The position numbers were made by a program, and so were the translations under genes. Shown in pieces: positions 36,070 to 57,989 of a DNA stretch of 64,000 bases; positions within the stretch are counted from its first letter, which is position 1; every line of letters begins with the position of its first letter. Source of the DNA: Rippkaea orientalis PCC 8801 (GTDB taxonomy: Bacteria > Cyanobacteriota > Cyanobacteriia > Cyanobacteriales > Microcystaceae). The DNA lies in assembly GCF_000021805.1 (NCBI RefSeq), contig NC_011726.1:4000097-4064096 (forward strand), read 5' to 3'. Under the pieces are notes generated by a model. It saw only the letters and a program-made list of their open reading frames with translations, did no database searches and was not told where the DNA came from.

Positions 36070-36726
36070 TTACTTAGGAAAGTTGGGAAAAAAGACTTTA
36101 ATTGCTCCCGTTATAATGGTTAAGATTAAACCAACTACCACCGACCGATTGATAAATTCTTGAGTGTCTAAGCGTTTACTCATTCCCTCAACTGTAGCAT
36201 CAAGAATTTTAATTTCTCCCTTAATTTCTGTTCCCATTTTTTCCATTTTACCCGTCAGATCTTTTTCAAGGTTTTCCATCTTGCCCGTGAGATCTTTTTC
36301 GAGGTTTTCCATTTTACCCGTGAGATCTTTTTCAAGGTTTTCCATTTTACCCGTGAGATCTTTTTCGAGGTTTTCCATCTTGCCCGTGAGATCTTTTTCG
36401 AGGTTTTCCATCTTGCCCGTCAGTTCAGTTTCTAATTTTTCCATCTTGCCCGTCAGTTCGGTTTCTAGTCTTTTCATCTCTCCTTCAAGTTTTGTTTGTC
36501 CAATCTTCAGACCGTTAACATCATTTTGAAGGCTATTTAGGGCTGTTTCAAATTTTTCTTCAAGCTTATTGAATTTGCTGTCAAATTTCTCTTCAAGCTT
36601 ATCGAATTTGCTGTCAAATTTCTCTTCAAGCTTGTCAAATTTTTCATCGATCTTATCTAACTTACCGTTGATCTGTTTTAAGATGTCTTCTAAAGAGTAA
36701 CTAATACTGACAGGGGTTTGACTCAT
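36070..36726 (-). CDS. long coiled-coil protein with C-terminal membrane helix
   Basis: The 218-residue protein starts with three KLEEKFDSKFD-type 11-residue repeats, continues with seven LTGKMENLEKD-type 11-residue repeats, and ends with a membrane helix (VVVGLILTIITGAIKVFF, about 195-212). Eleven-residue repeats form a hendecad coiled coil, so the product is a long rod tethered to the membrane, in outline like small XhlA-type proteins. The repeats are nearly identical at DNA level. Function unknown. It is divergent from the RND pump gene. Confidence 0.72.
   Translation of the reverse strand: MSQTPVSISYSLEDILKQINGKLDKIDEKFDKLEEKFDSKFDKLEEKFDSKFNKLEEKFETALNSLQNDVNGLKIGQTKLEGEMKRLETELTGKMEKLETELTGKMENLEKDLTGKMENLEKDLTGKMENLEKDLTGKMENLEKDLTGKMENLEKDLTGKMEKMGTEIKGEIKILDATVEGMSKRLDTQEFINRSVVVGLILTIITGAIKVFFPNFPK
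36240..36475 (-). repeat. 33-bp coding minisatellite, seven units
   Basis: Seven tandem 33-bp units encode LTGKMExLExx. Five are almost identical at DNA level. The number of units could change by slippage without breaking the frame. Confidence 0.85.
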
Positions 36727-53340: not shown

Positions 53341-54519
53341 ATGCGCTTTGCTAACCGTCTCCAAGCCTTGTCTAGTAATGTCTTTGCTGATATGGATCGA
53401 GCCAAAACTCAGGCGATATCAGCCGGCAAGACTATTATCGATTTATCCTTAGGATCGTCGGATTTACCCGCCTCAGAGATAGCGATCACAGCTATTGAAG
53501 AATCTTTACACGATCCCACCACCCACGGTTATTTATTACATCACGGAACCTTGCCCTTTAGAGAAGCGGCGGCTCAATGGTACACTCAACGCTTCGGTAT
53601 CCCCATCGATCCCCATACAGAAGTGCTAGCCTTAATTGGTTCCCAAGAAGGAACCGCCCATTTACCCCTAACTATCCTCAATCCAGGAGATTTTGCCCTA
53701 TTACTCGATCCGGGTTATCCTTCCCATGCTGGAGGGGTTTATCTCGCGGGTGGTCAAATTTATGGGATGCCTTTGTTAGCGGAAAATCATTTTTTACCGA
53801 TTTTTAGCGATATTCCTGCTTCTGTTGTGGATCAAGCCCGTTTAATGGTGTTGAGTTATCCCCATAATCCAACCACGGCGATCGCGTCTTTATCCTTTTT
53901 TGAGGAAGCGGTGGCTTTCTGTCAACAACATGATTTAGTTTTAGTTCATGATTTTCCCTACGTTGATATTGTTTTTGAAGGGATAACTTCACCCCCGTCT
54001 ATTTTGCAAGCCGATCTGAATAAATCGGTTTCCATTGAGTTCTTTACGTTCTCTAAATCCTACAATATGGGAGGGTTTCGTATTGGTTATGCCGTTGGTA
54101 ATGCTCAATTAATTAAAGCCTTAAGACAGGTTAAAGCCATGGTGGATTTTAATCAGTATCGAGGCATTTTAAAGGGGGCGATCGCGGCTTTAGAAGGGTC
54201 TCAAGATTCCGTTCAACAAACGGTGATTAAATTTCAACAACGACGCGATGCTTTTATTAAGGCTCTTAATCAGATTAATTGGCCAGTTGATCCTCCCCAA
54301 GCAACGATGTATGTCTGGGCGAAATTACCCGAACCTTGGCAACAAAAATCCGTGGAATTTTGTACCCAATTAGTGTTAGAAACCGGGGTAGCTGTTTCGC
54401 CAGGAGCAGGGTTTGGCAAACAGGGAGAAGGCTATGTTAGATTTGCCTTAGTTCATGATCCTGATGTATTGGAAATAGCCGTTGAGAAAATCGCTAACTT
54501 TTTAAGCATTAAACCATGA
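53341..54519 (+). CDS. class I/II PLP-dependent aminotransferase
   Basis: The 392-residue protein (from the ATG at 53341) is a fold-type I aminotransferase. SHDPTTHGYLLHHGTLPFRE-like substrate-side residues occur early. LSYPHNPTT, DFPYVDI (PLP pyridine Asp) and FTFSKSYNMGGFRIGYAVGN (Schiff-base lysine) follow. It most resembles LL-diaminopimelate- or aspartate-type enzymes, which supply lysine and peptidoglycan precursors, but substrate cannot be read off. It converges with yraN, overlapping by 11 bp. Upstream codons to 53293 lack support. Confidence 0.85.
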   Translation: MRFANRLQALSSNVFADMDRAKTQAISAGKTIIDLSLGSSDLPASEIAITAIEESLHDPTTHGYLLHHGTLPFREAAAQWYTQRFGIPIDPHTEVLALIGSQEGTAHLPLTILNPGDFALLLDPGYPSHAGGVYLAGGQIYGMPLLAENHFLPIFSDIPASVVDQARLMVLSYPHNPTTAIASLSFFEEAVAFCQQHDLVLVHDFPYVDIVFEGITSPPSILQADLNKSVSIEFFTFSKSYNMGGFRIGYAVGNAQLIKALRQVKAMVDFNQYRGILKGAIAALEGSQDSVQQTVIKFQQRRDAFIKALNQINWPVDPPQATMYVWAKLPEPWQQKSVEFCTQLVLETGVAVSPGAGFGKQGEGYVRFALVHDPDVLEIAVEKIANFLSIKP

Positions 54520-54943
54520 AAGCTGCCTCAAGATAATCCGATAAAACCAGTTGATAACCCTGCCACTGTATCGGTTGATGAAGGGCGATCGCTTGATGAA
54601 TGTCGTCTAACCCCCTATCAGGACTCTTTTTATAGTTAACCAAGGCGACATCAAAACGACAAGGAAAGTCGGCTAAATGGGGATATTCTGCGAGAAAATA
54701 GGCGGCTGATTGGGTTAATTTAACCTGTTTTTGAGGCGTAATGGCTAAAAGACCATCAGCATCCCAATTACCACGACTACGGGTTTTTACTTCCACAAAG
54801 GTAATTAAATTAGTTCCTTGAGAGTGAGCAATGAGGTCAATTTCTCCCCCAGGACATCGCCAGCGTTGCTGTAAAATTGTCCACCCTTGGGACTGTAACC
54901 ATCGAGCGACTAAATTTTCTCCCAGTTGACCAATTGAAGTCAT
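54509..54943 (-). CDS. YraN/UPF0102 family protein
   Basis: The 144-residue protein (from the ATG at 54943) has the UPF0102 core: GQLGENLVARWLQSQGWTIL, then CPGGEIDLIAHS and TFVEVKTRS, which together form a PD-(D/E)xK nuclease-like site (E, D, ExK). The family function is unknown; a Holliday-junction-resolvase-like fold is known. Its start codon lies 2 bp from the left copy of the 28-bp direct repeat, so the repeat holds the native upstream region of yraN. Confidence 0.88.
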   Translation of the reverse strand: MTSIGQLGENLVARWLQSQGWTILQQRWRCPGGEIDLIAHSQGTNLITFVEVKTRSRGNWDADGLLAITPQKQVKLTQSAAYFLAEYPHLADFPCRFDVALVNYKKSPDRGLDDIHQAIALHQPIQWQGYQLVLSDYLEAAFMV

Positions 54944-54945
54944 AG

Positions 54946-54973
54946 AAATTGTAGTAAAGTGTAATAGGAGAAT
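54946..54973. repeat. 28-bp direct repeat, left copy, bounding the R-M module
   Basis: Begins AAATTGTAGTAAAGTG and ends TAGGAGAAT, identical over 28 bp to 57404-57431. With one mismatch the match extends to 33 bp (to 54978). It lies between the yraN start and the controller gene. Confidence 0.95.
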
Positions 54974-55052
54974 GTTATCAAAAATCAAAGATATTTATGA
55001 TAGAGTCAGCGAAGTTAACTCATATTACCTTAACAATAGAGAGTTAGCCGTC

Positions 55053-55271
55053 ATGGATGCTAGAGTTAAAGCTTTTGGAATGCGGGTACGTTATTTCAGA
55101 AAACTTTTAGGAATATCCCAAGATGATCTTGCTGAAAAAGCTGGTATGCACAGAACCTACATTGGTGCTATTGAAAGAGGAGAAAGAAATGTTAGCTTAC
55201 TTAATATATTGCGTTTAGCTGATGCACTTGAAATTAAGGTCAAAGAATTATTTAATGTAGATATTGATTGA
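55053..55271 (+). CDS. XRE-family HTH regulator, R-M controller (C) protein
   Basis: The 72-residue product from the ATG at 55053 is a compact helix-turn-helix protein: FRKLLGISQDDLAEKAGMHRTYIGAIERGERNVSL. That is the size and form of C proteins that time nuclease expression in type II R-M systems. The frame stays open to an ATG at 54972, inside the direct repeat, but there AGGAG is only one base from the start, too close for good initiation. It lies 12 bp before the nuclease gene. Confidence 0.85.
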   Translation: MDARVKAFGMRVRYFRKLLGISQDDLAEKAGMHRTYIGAIERGERNVSLLNILRLADALEIKVKELFNVDID

Positions 55272-55283
55272 GAGAAAATTGCA

Positions 55284-55982
55284 ATGATAGATGAAGTTGA
55301 ACTCCTCGATATAGCTATAAGTAATATCAGAAAAGTTTTAGAGTTTGATCCTTACAAAAGCTATTCTGGTGTAAATAATCGAGATGACTTTAAACAACTA
55401 ATAGCAAGCGATCCTGCATTTGGTGTTTTAGGGTTAGATGATGATAGATATGTTATTGCTAGAGTAGGTGGGAACCTTGTAACCTCTTTGCATCGTAAAT
55501 TAGGTGATATGTACGAAGGATTGTTTAGCTATCTTTTACAAAAAAGTTTTTCCCTCAATGACAATGATCTACACTTTAGTGTAGAGGTTCAAATTGGTGA
55601 TCGTATTCAAGTTCGTTCTACTGATGGATTGATCAAAAAAGATAAATTTAATGAACGAATTCCTAGAAATTGGGTTAACTACCAAGGAATAGGATTTGAA
55701 GTTCGTTCTTGCTATCAAATTGGTGACTCTAAAAGAATACAAGCTGATTATGATATGTCATTAGCGTTAAAATCTTGTGAAATTCTTCCTATCATGTTGG
55801 TTTTCTGTAATACATCATTAAAAAATCCTTTATCTAGGTTATCTAAAAGTTGGGAACTTTACGAAGGAATGCAAAGTTTTAACTTAGTCCAATCAATAAC
55901 TGGATTTAACTTATATAACTTCCTTGAGGATAATTCTCACATTCTTAAGCAAGAGATCGATAATATCTTTACTAACTTTTAA
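55284..55982 (+). CDS. type II restriction endonuclease (predicted)
   Basis: The 232-residue protein has no helix-turn-helix or membrane segment and sits 12 bp after the controller gene and tail to tail with the methyltransferase. That layout identifies it as the nuclease. A candidate catalytic region is IGFEVRSCYQIGDSKRIQADYDMS (about residues 135-160), with acidic residues and a lysine suitable for a PD-(D/E)xK site. I suspect an ApaLI-like family, but cannot confirm it. The recognition sequence is unknown. The 3' end overlaps the methyltransferase by 11 bp. Confidence 0.78.
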   Translation: MIDEVELLDIAISNIRKVLEFDPYKSYSGVNNRDDFKQLIASDPAFGVLGLDDDRYVIARVGGNLVTSLHRKLGDMYEGLFSYLLQKSFSLNDNDLHFSVEVQIGDRIQVRSTDGLIKKDKFNERIPRNWVNYQGIGFEVRSCYQIGDSKRIQADYDMSLALKSCEILPIMLVFCNTSLKNPLSRLSKSWELYEGMQSFNLVQSITGFNLYNFLEDNSHILKQEIDNIFTNF

Positions 55983-57291
55983 TATAAATAGCCGTTTCAT
56001 AAAGATTTCTTTTCCCTCCTCTTTTTCTAAACAAAACTATTTTTTCAACTTCAAAACCTTCATGTCTAAAAAGCTTACTTAAAATAGATTCTGTGAATAT
56101 TTCTACCCCGGAAAGTCTAGAATTTCCTACAATATATACCCCACGAAATCGATTCGCTTTAACTTTTTTAAGGGATTTGATGTGTTGCCACATATCGATA
56201 AAGTATTTCGTTGCATAATTACACATCAATATATTTTTTGGTTGTAATTCTTTATAGTAACACAGATATGGTTTGATCTCATTAGGGACAAGAATCAATT
56301 TTTTTTGTAAAATAGAAGTAGCTCTACCCCAGGTTCCTCCAATAGCCTGTAAATCAATTTCTGTAGCTTGTCTAACATTATCTAAAACTTCCATAAAATG
56401 TAGTTGAGGTCTAGTTTGATGAATATAACTATAGCGGTTAGGATAAGGAGGTGAAGTAATAACAAAATCAACAGAACAATTAATTTGATTCTCCAAATTA
56501 TAGATTGAGTTCCCTAGTTTAATTGAACTTAGTTGTGAAAATGATATTTCTTTACTATTAAGATTAATTAAATCCGAAACTATTATTCCTAGATTTTGCT
56601 TAACTTGCCATAAAACATCAATTATACGTTGATGATTGTCATCAAAAGTAATTGTAGGATGATTTCTGTGAATATTAGCACAATCTAAACAAGCTTGACT
56701 TAAAGCAATCCATAAATAGTCTTTAACTGAATAATAGGCTGGATGTAACATTACTTGACGAGAAATAATCAAGTTTTTAAGAACATCCTCTTTCCACCAT
56801 CTAAACACATTATGGATAATGGGAATATTCGTTTTAAAAACTTTGATGACATCTTCCAGAGAAGCATTCTTAAAATTATTAATTAAACTAGAAATTTCGA
56901 TCAGATATTGATCAATAAGATCAAGATTTTCTCTAGTCCAAATAAGAGATTTATTTCCTATTTTTTGTAATAAAGGGTTGATTTCAATCCCTAGAGATTT
57001 AATACCCTGTTTTTGGCACTCTATTGATGTTGTTCCTCTTCCACTAAATGGATCAAGCACAAAATATTCTTCAGTAATTTGCAATTCTTTAATCAAAAAT
57101 CTGACTAATTCTGGGGAATAACTTGGAGTAAGACGATACCATCTATGAACTGATTCAACTTGTCCTGCTTTAAAGGTAATATCTCCTATATCTACTTCCT
57201 CATACTCAAAACCTGAATTTTGGATATTCTGATAAAAAGATGGTTGATTATTGTTAATATCTAATTCAAATAATGATAGCTGTTGAAACAT
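55972..57291 (-). CDS. DNA methyltransferase of type II R-M system
   Basis: From the ATG at 57291 the protein is 439 residues. Motif DPFSGRGTTS near residue 80 (AdoMet binding) precedes the catalytic TSPPYPNRYSY near residue 280. TSPPY is usual for N4-cytosine and some N6-adenine methyltransferases, so modification of an exocyclic amine is expected. It is convergent with the nuclease. The open frame to 57363 starts with an unconserved leader. The base-specific target cannot be decided. Confidence 0.88.
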   Translation of the reverse strand: MFQQLSLFELDINNNQPSFYQNIQNSGFEYEEVDIGDITFKAGQVESVHRWYRLTPSYSPELVRFLIKELQITEEYFVLDPFSGRGTTSIECQKQGIKSLGIEINPLLQKIGNKSLIWTRENLDLIDQYLIEISSLINNFKNASLEDVIKVFKTNIPIIHNVFRWWKEDVLKNLIISRQVMLHPAYYSVKDYLWIALSQACLDCANIHRNHPTITFDDNHQRIIDVLWQVKQNLGIIVSDLINLNSKEISFSQLSSIKLGNSIYNLENQINCSVDFVITSPPYPNRYSYIHQTRPQLHFMEVLDNVRQATEIDLQAIGGTWGRATSILQKKLILVPNEIKPYLCYYKELQPKNILMCNYATKYFIDMWQHIKSLKKVKANRFRGVYIVGNSRLSGVEIFTESILSKLFRHEGFEVEKIVLFRKRGGKRNLYETAIYIKS

Positions 57292-57403
57292 AAATATTAT
57301 TATAAATCTTATTTTTGTTCTTTTATGATACTTAAGAGTAGCATAAAAGAATATACTTTGCAACGCCTTTGAAAAACTTAAGATGGTCGTTAGAGTCTTC
57401 CTT

Positions 57404-57431
57404 AAATTGTAGTAAAGTGTAATAGGAGAAT
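57404..57431. repeat. 28-bp direct repeat, right copy, bounding the R-M module
   Basis: Identical to 54946-54973 and in the same orientation. It lies 113 bp upstream of the methyltransferase start and 43 bp before the pentapeptide gene. Here the AGGAG is followed by a two-codon frame, ATG AGT TAA. Confidence 0.95.
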
Positions 57432-57473
57432 ATTATGAGTTAAACTTTACCAAAAATTAACGAAATTGTGATT

Positions 57474-57989
57474 ATGATGACTCTGAATTACCGAAAATTC
57501 TGGTTAAGATTCGCTGTATTACTAACCTTGATGGCTATTCTTATCTTGAGCAACCCCATTTTACCTGTTAGGGCAGTCGATTACGCTAGGGCAAACTTTG
57601 TTGAAAAGGATTTTTCGGGTCAAGATTTGCGCGATGCGCTGTTTGATCATGCGAATTTACGCGGGAGCAATTTTAGTCATGCGAATTTGCAAGGAGTGCG
57701 GTTTTTTAGTGCCAATTTAGAAGGGGCGAATTTTGAAGGAGCCGATCTCAGGGGAGCCGATTTAGAGTCGGCTCGATTAACCAGGGTTAACTTTACCAAT
57801 GCGCTTTTAGAAGGAGCTTTTGCCACTAATGTTTTAATTAAGGGCGTAATTATTGATGGGGCTGATTTTACCGATGTTTTATTACGTCCTGATGTTGAAA
57901 AACAATTGTGTGCGATCGCACAAGGAACTAATCCCGTTACCGGACGTAATACTAAAGATACCTTATTTTGCCCTTCAGTTGTCAAATGA
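57474..57989 (+). CDS. lumenal pentapeptide repeat protein
   Basis: The 171-residue product has a signal peptide (hydrophobic residues 12-31, then PVRAVDYARA). A run of A(D/N)LxG pentapeptides follows (about 45-120: LRGSNFSHANLQGVRFF and ADLRGADLESARL). It ends with a PDVEKQLCAIAQGTNPVTGRNTKDTLFC segment with two cysteines, as in thylakoid-lumen pentapeptide proteins of plants and cyanobacteria (TL17-like). Their function is unknown. It starts with GTG at 57468 or ATG at 57474 or 57477. Its leader contains the right direct repeat. Confidence 0.82.
   Translation: MMTLNYRKFWLRFAVLLTLMAILILSNPILPVRAVDYARANFVEKDFSGQDLRDALFDHANLRGSNFSHANLQGVRFFSANLEGANFEGADLRGADLESARLTRVNFTNALLEGAFATNVLIKGVIIDGADFTDVLLRPDVEKQLCAIAQGTNPVTGRNTKDTLFCPSVVK

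Follow-up and report, generated by a model that had tools for sequence, protein, structure and literature searches.

A restriction-modification cassette between direct repeats in Rippkaea orientalis PCC 8801 and its probable insertion with a 33-bp target duplication

How did a set of restriction-modification (R-M) genes come to lie between two near-identical copies of one short sequence, in the space between two divergent host genes? We addressed this question in a 64,000-nt stretch of the Rippkaea orientalis PCC 8801 genome (hereafter the window). Family matches identify the host genes as yraN (UPF0102; 54512..54943, minus strand) on the left and a pentapeptide-repeat gene (57474..57989, plus strand) on the right.

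Repeat search, genome pattern search and empty-site alignments define a direct repeat with a left copy, the putative target duplication, at 54946..54978 and a right copy at 57404..57436 (no strand is assigned to either). The repeat, AAATTGTAGTAAAGTGTAATAGGAGAATATTAT or nearly so, is 33 nt long and identical between copies at 32 of 33 positions. The first 28 nt match exactly, the single mismatch is G54974 (left) versus A57432 (right), and the start-to-start distance is 2458. A gap of 2 bp separates the yraN start codon (CAT 54941-54943) from the left copy, and 37 bp lie between the right copy and the pentapeptide ATG (57474). These coordinates agree with the placement in the first-pass annotation of one copy 2 bp from the yraN start and the other in the pentapeptide leader. 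That annotation had also described the repeat, as 28 exact bp or 33 bp with one mismatch, bounding controller, nuclease and methyltransferase genes; repeat search confirms this description and the repeat is unique in the genome, since a pattern search with up to 3 mismatches found no third site for its 26-mer core in 4.79 Mb. Within the window, exact repeats of greater length are confined to tandemly repeated coding sequence at 12.5 kb and 36.3-36.6 kb. The region at 36070-36726 (minus strand) encodes a coiled-coil-like protein of 218 aa that has a hydrophobic C-terminal segment and whose coding sequence contains tandem 33-bp repeats (MENLEKDLTGK).

The inserted cassette (54979..57403, no strand), delimited from the open reading frame list, composition and a terminal repeat test, spans 2425 bp and has a GC content of 30.5% versus 38.8% for the window. 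It contains three genes only: C (controller), R (type II restriction endonuclease) and M (DNA methyltransferase). No transposase was found in it by the open reading frame list, family searches or PADLOC, which bears out an earlier remark to that effect, and a test for terminal inverted repeats of the cassette was negative (p=0.30-0.97).

C (55053..55271, plus strand; 72 aa from the conserved start) was assigned by homology and PADLOC. It is a helix-turn-helix (HTH) gene upstream of R, matches a PADLOC control protein (6e-20) and is closest by sequence to C.AhdI (2.5e-16) and C.BclI (2.3e-14). The open frame reaches back to an ATG at 54972 (99 aa), inside the left repeat copy, which is created by the G/A mismatch between the copies and stands just 1 nt from a GGAG motif. 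C homologues start at an MDAR/MNAR methionine that corresponds to 55053, 27 codons past ATG 54972, and ATG 55053 rather than ATG 54972 is probably the start of C.

R (55284..55982, plus strand; 232 aa) was assigned by PADLOC, homologues and a fold search. It matches REase_II PDLC03406 over 232/233 positions (8e-127) and has no Pfam or NCBIfam match. A fold search with its AlphaFold model (pLDDT 89.7) gave just a weak match, to nuclease structures of the Card1/Can2 type (6xl1, E=1.6e-3), which suggests a PD-(D/E)XK-type fold; no specificity was deduced from it. M (55972..57291, minus strand; 439 aa), identified by families and PADLOC, is an N6_N4_Mtase protein with a TSPPY motif (PF01555 at 8e-10; MTase_II at 1.5e-33), convergent with R and overlapping its end. 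With controller, endonuclease and methyltransferase genes present and endonuclease activity predicted, the cassette classifies from its genes as a C-controlled type II R-M system.

We identified 14 sampled relatives, two of them outside the family, in which yraN and the pentapeptide gene lie near each other in divergent orientation, without R-M genes. The empty sites compared are all from other species. In genome G014 the single intergenic sequence is CATAAAATTGGTGTAAAGTAGATTAAGAGACTATTATT; its alignment, the best case, begins at the yraN start codon and covers the entire repeat, TTAT included, with 30/38 positions identical. Genomes G008 and G002 align to the repeat similarly, and the G002 alignment runs on into the right flank. 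In all three, the empty-site copy is as far from the yraN start codon as the repeat is in the window. Five further relatives (G631, G622, G616, G618 and G629) keep the first half of the repeat. Inside the repeat, 8 sampled genomes have the motif TA[A/G][A/G][A/G]T at 10 nt past the yraN start codon, compared with 11 nt in the window.

The repeat fits these empty sites above shuffled sequence (summed p=0.0015; G014 p=0.002), a statistic carried mostly by G014, G008 and G002, the match in the other five being limited to the repeat's first part. The left and right cassette ends do not fit the empty sites above shuffles (p=0.13 and 0.74, respectively). The repeat aligns to empty sites and the cassette ends do not, which argues that the repeat derives from ancestral host DNA and was duplicated; judged from these alignments, it is a sequence predicted to have been single-copy before the insertion and double after it. 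Comparison with relatives lacking the R-M genes, which the first-pass annotation had suggested, thus finds one repeat-like copy between yraN and the pentapeptide gene and supports its reading of insertion with target duplication. In G002, whose empty site is the nearest to have both genes, the flanking proteins are only ~69-75% identical, so the endpoints of the duplication are unreadable base by base and we infer them. Among other members of the genus, yraN is absent from four small genomes and from G005, whose contig ends within the pentapeptide gene.

The same comparison refutes an origin of the repeat by chance or assembly artefact, to which we give almost no credence: relatives hold the ancestral single copy, 64 kb of this composition would yield about 1e-7 exact 28-mer pairs by chance, and the genome is assembled in only 4 contigs. 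At locus L007 (G029), ~0.9 kb with a sulfotransferase-like gene fragment separates yraN from the pentapeptide gene, and the same intergenic region has therefore taken another insert.

We conclude that a horizontally acquired C-R-M cassette was very probably inserted between divergent host genes, duplicating 33 bp of target. Horizontal acquisition is supported by the low GC content and by the patchy distribution of R relatives, which occur in 16/386 sampled cyanobacterial genomes, the close ones at 75-84% identity. None was found in six other genomes of the genus or in the plasmid and viral collections searched. In genomes G023, G638 and G454, matches to R are only partial.

Insertion of R-M genes with long target duplication is reportedly described in Nobusato et al. 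2000 (Helicobacter pylori) and in Furuta et al. 2010. As the first-pass annotation had stated, this type of insertion is on record: such target duplications are long and variable (PMC1643837, PMC3031569), and the first were observed in Helicobacter pylori (Nobusato et al. 2000). The present case joins that type, and the kind of insertion is not itself new. Like those cases, it combines long direct repeats flanking R-M genes, a target that is single-copy at empty sites in relatives, and no transposase or terminal inverted repeats; unlike them, it concerns a cyanobacterium, 33 bp, and an intergenic site between divergent genes, with empty sites in other species only. For a cyanobacterium, the locus offers a clean filled/empty site pair for transposase-free R-M movement, and with it the joining mechanism becomes testable.

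Do related modules elsewhere carry comparable repeats? Flanking direct repeats in 13 other modules amount to chance-level matches only. For a second comparison we read filled loci L056, L058 and L076 against the empty locus L122 of a genome of the same genus (G101). The empty site is GGGTAAAGGAAAAATTCATCC, and the junctions of L058 and L076 are GGGTAAAGAAAAATGAGC (left) and CTCAAAAATTCATCC (right). In L058 and L076, then, no more than AAAAAT (6 bp) is shared, and this filled/empty pair may represent either an insertion or a deletion. An empty-site comparison for L054 (genus g25) met a left neighbour that differs in relatives. In G277, which carries L058, R is in fragments while C and M are intact. 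The 13 modules without flanking repeats and the 6 bp of the other pair indicate that the long duplication characterizes this one event rather than the R-M family, which fits a break-and-join insertion better than a dedicated recombinase. The family's lack of comparable repeats elsewhere argues that the duplication came from a break in the target, not from a dedicated enzyme encoded by the cassette.

These modules also bear on a different route to the same structure, a Campbell-type reciprocal integration in which circular DNA with the R-M genes and one 33-bp copy recombined with the single copy on the chromosome, with no staggered break. Its end product would be identical, and 33 bp is close to the minimum length that supports homologous recombination. 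Crossing-over between an R-M plasmid and the chromosome is reported at 1-3 bp of identity (PMC3031569). The 33 bp is, however, host intergenic sequence that the donor must first have picked up, none of the 13 other modules has the repeat, and the collections searched yielded no plasmid or viral contig with an R relative. We consider this route improbable.

Insertion with target duplication may have proceeded as follows. The target would have suffered a staggered break or paired opposite nicks ~33 bp apart; after fill-in, the broken ends would have been ligated to an incoming R-M fragment, the scheme proposed for long target duplication. We infer this joining step, since to our knowledge no enzyme has been shown to make a 33-bp duplication. 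Both host genes would thereby retain a 5' region of their own. From then on the cassette would function like any other type II R-M system under C control, with R cutting unmodified DNA and M protecting host DNA. The 28-bp exact repeat would permit precise loss or tandem amplification by recombination; direct repeats from such insertions can support tandem amplification (PMC3031569).

The duplicated sequence could also matter for expression. A conserved -10-like TAAAGT lies within the left copy (54955-54960) and is retained in the right copy (57413-57418), which also carries a GGAG motif within the pentapeptide leader. A consensus promoter scan gave no site on the repeat, and promoter-like sites were at background level. 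Because the -10-like element of the repeat is directed toward the pentapeptide gene, the left copy may feed transcription into C-R. A stronger version would make the duplication functional as well as a scar: with the host -10 element and leader copied, C-R would be transcribed from a host promoter captured in the left copy, and the right copy would maintain expression of the pentapeptide gene. We hold this version to be unlikely. If true, target duplication at divergent promoters would let R-M genes settle without harm to either neighbour. We also considered the left copy as part of the module's own C-upstream DNA and rejected this, as the C-upstream DNA of homologous modules is unlike the repeat.

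The first-pass annotation had offered as an alternative a controller-protein operator at both promoters; we took these to be the C-R promoter and the pentapeptide (or M) promoter. The arrangement would suit such a role, with one copy directly preceding C and the second located upstream of M at the far side of the module, and C proteins bind repeated operators. Several observations weigh against it. First, a dyad-symmetry test of the repeat was negative (p=0.92). Second, in homologous modules that have C, the regions upstream of C and of M do not resemble the repeat. Third, relatives without C or R-M genes hold a single copy. Finally, a better operator candidate is present at the M promoter. 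Repeat listing and module comparison identify a 34-bp palindrome, TTCTTTTATGATACTTAAGAGTAGCATAAAAGAA, upstream of M (57318..57351), and the palindrome ATGCTACTTnnAAGTAGCAT is found shortly upstream of M in 5/5 modules with intact C versus 3/9 modules without, one of which has a C remnant (Fisher p=0.03 for association with C). We therefore disfavour operator repeats as very improbable.

A minus-strand TTGCAA-N17-TACTCT would put the palindrome over the M -10 region. Conserved over the M promoter in all five intact-C modules, the palindrome is likely the C operator; no matching site was seen upstream of C. C most likely would repress M via this candidate operator, as C.Kpn2I represses M (PMC6237814). 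The cassette resembles the C-controlled AhdI, BclI, Esp1396I and Kpn2I systems in its small HTH controller upstream of R. Unlike those systems, M is convergent with R and overlaps the R end, R belongs to no Pfam or NCBIfam family by match, and C is missing from many homologous modules. Two homologous modules (L061 and L062) retain the palindrome upstream of M with no C gene nearby, as if C had been lost recently.
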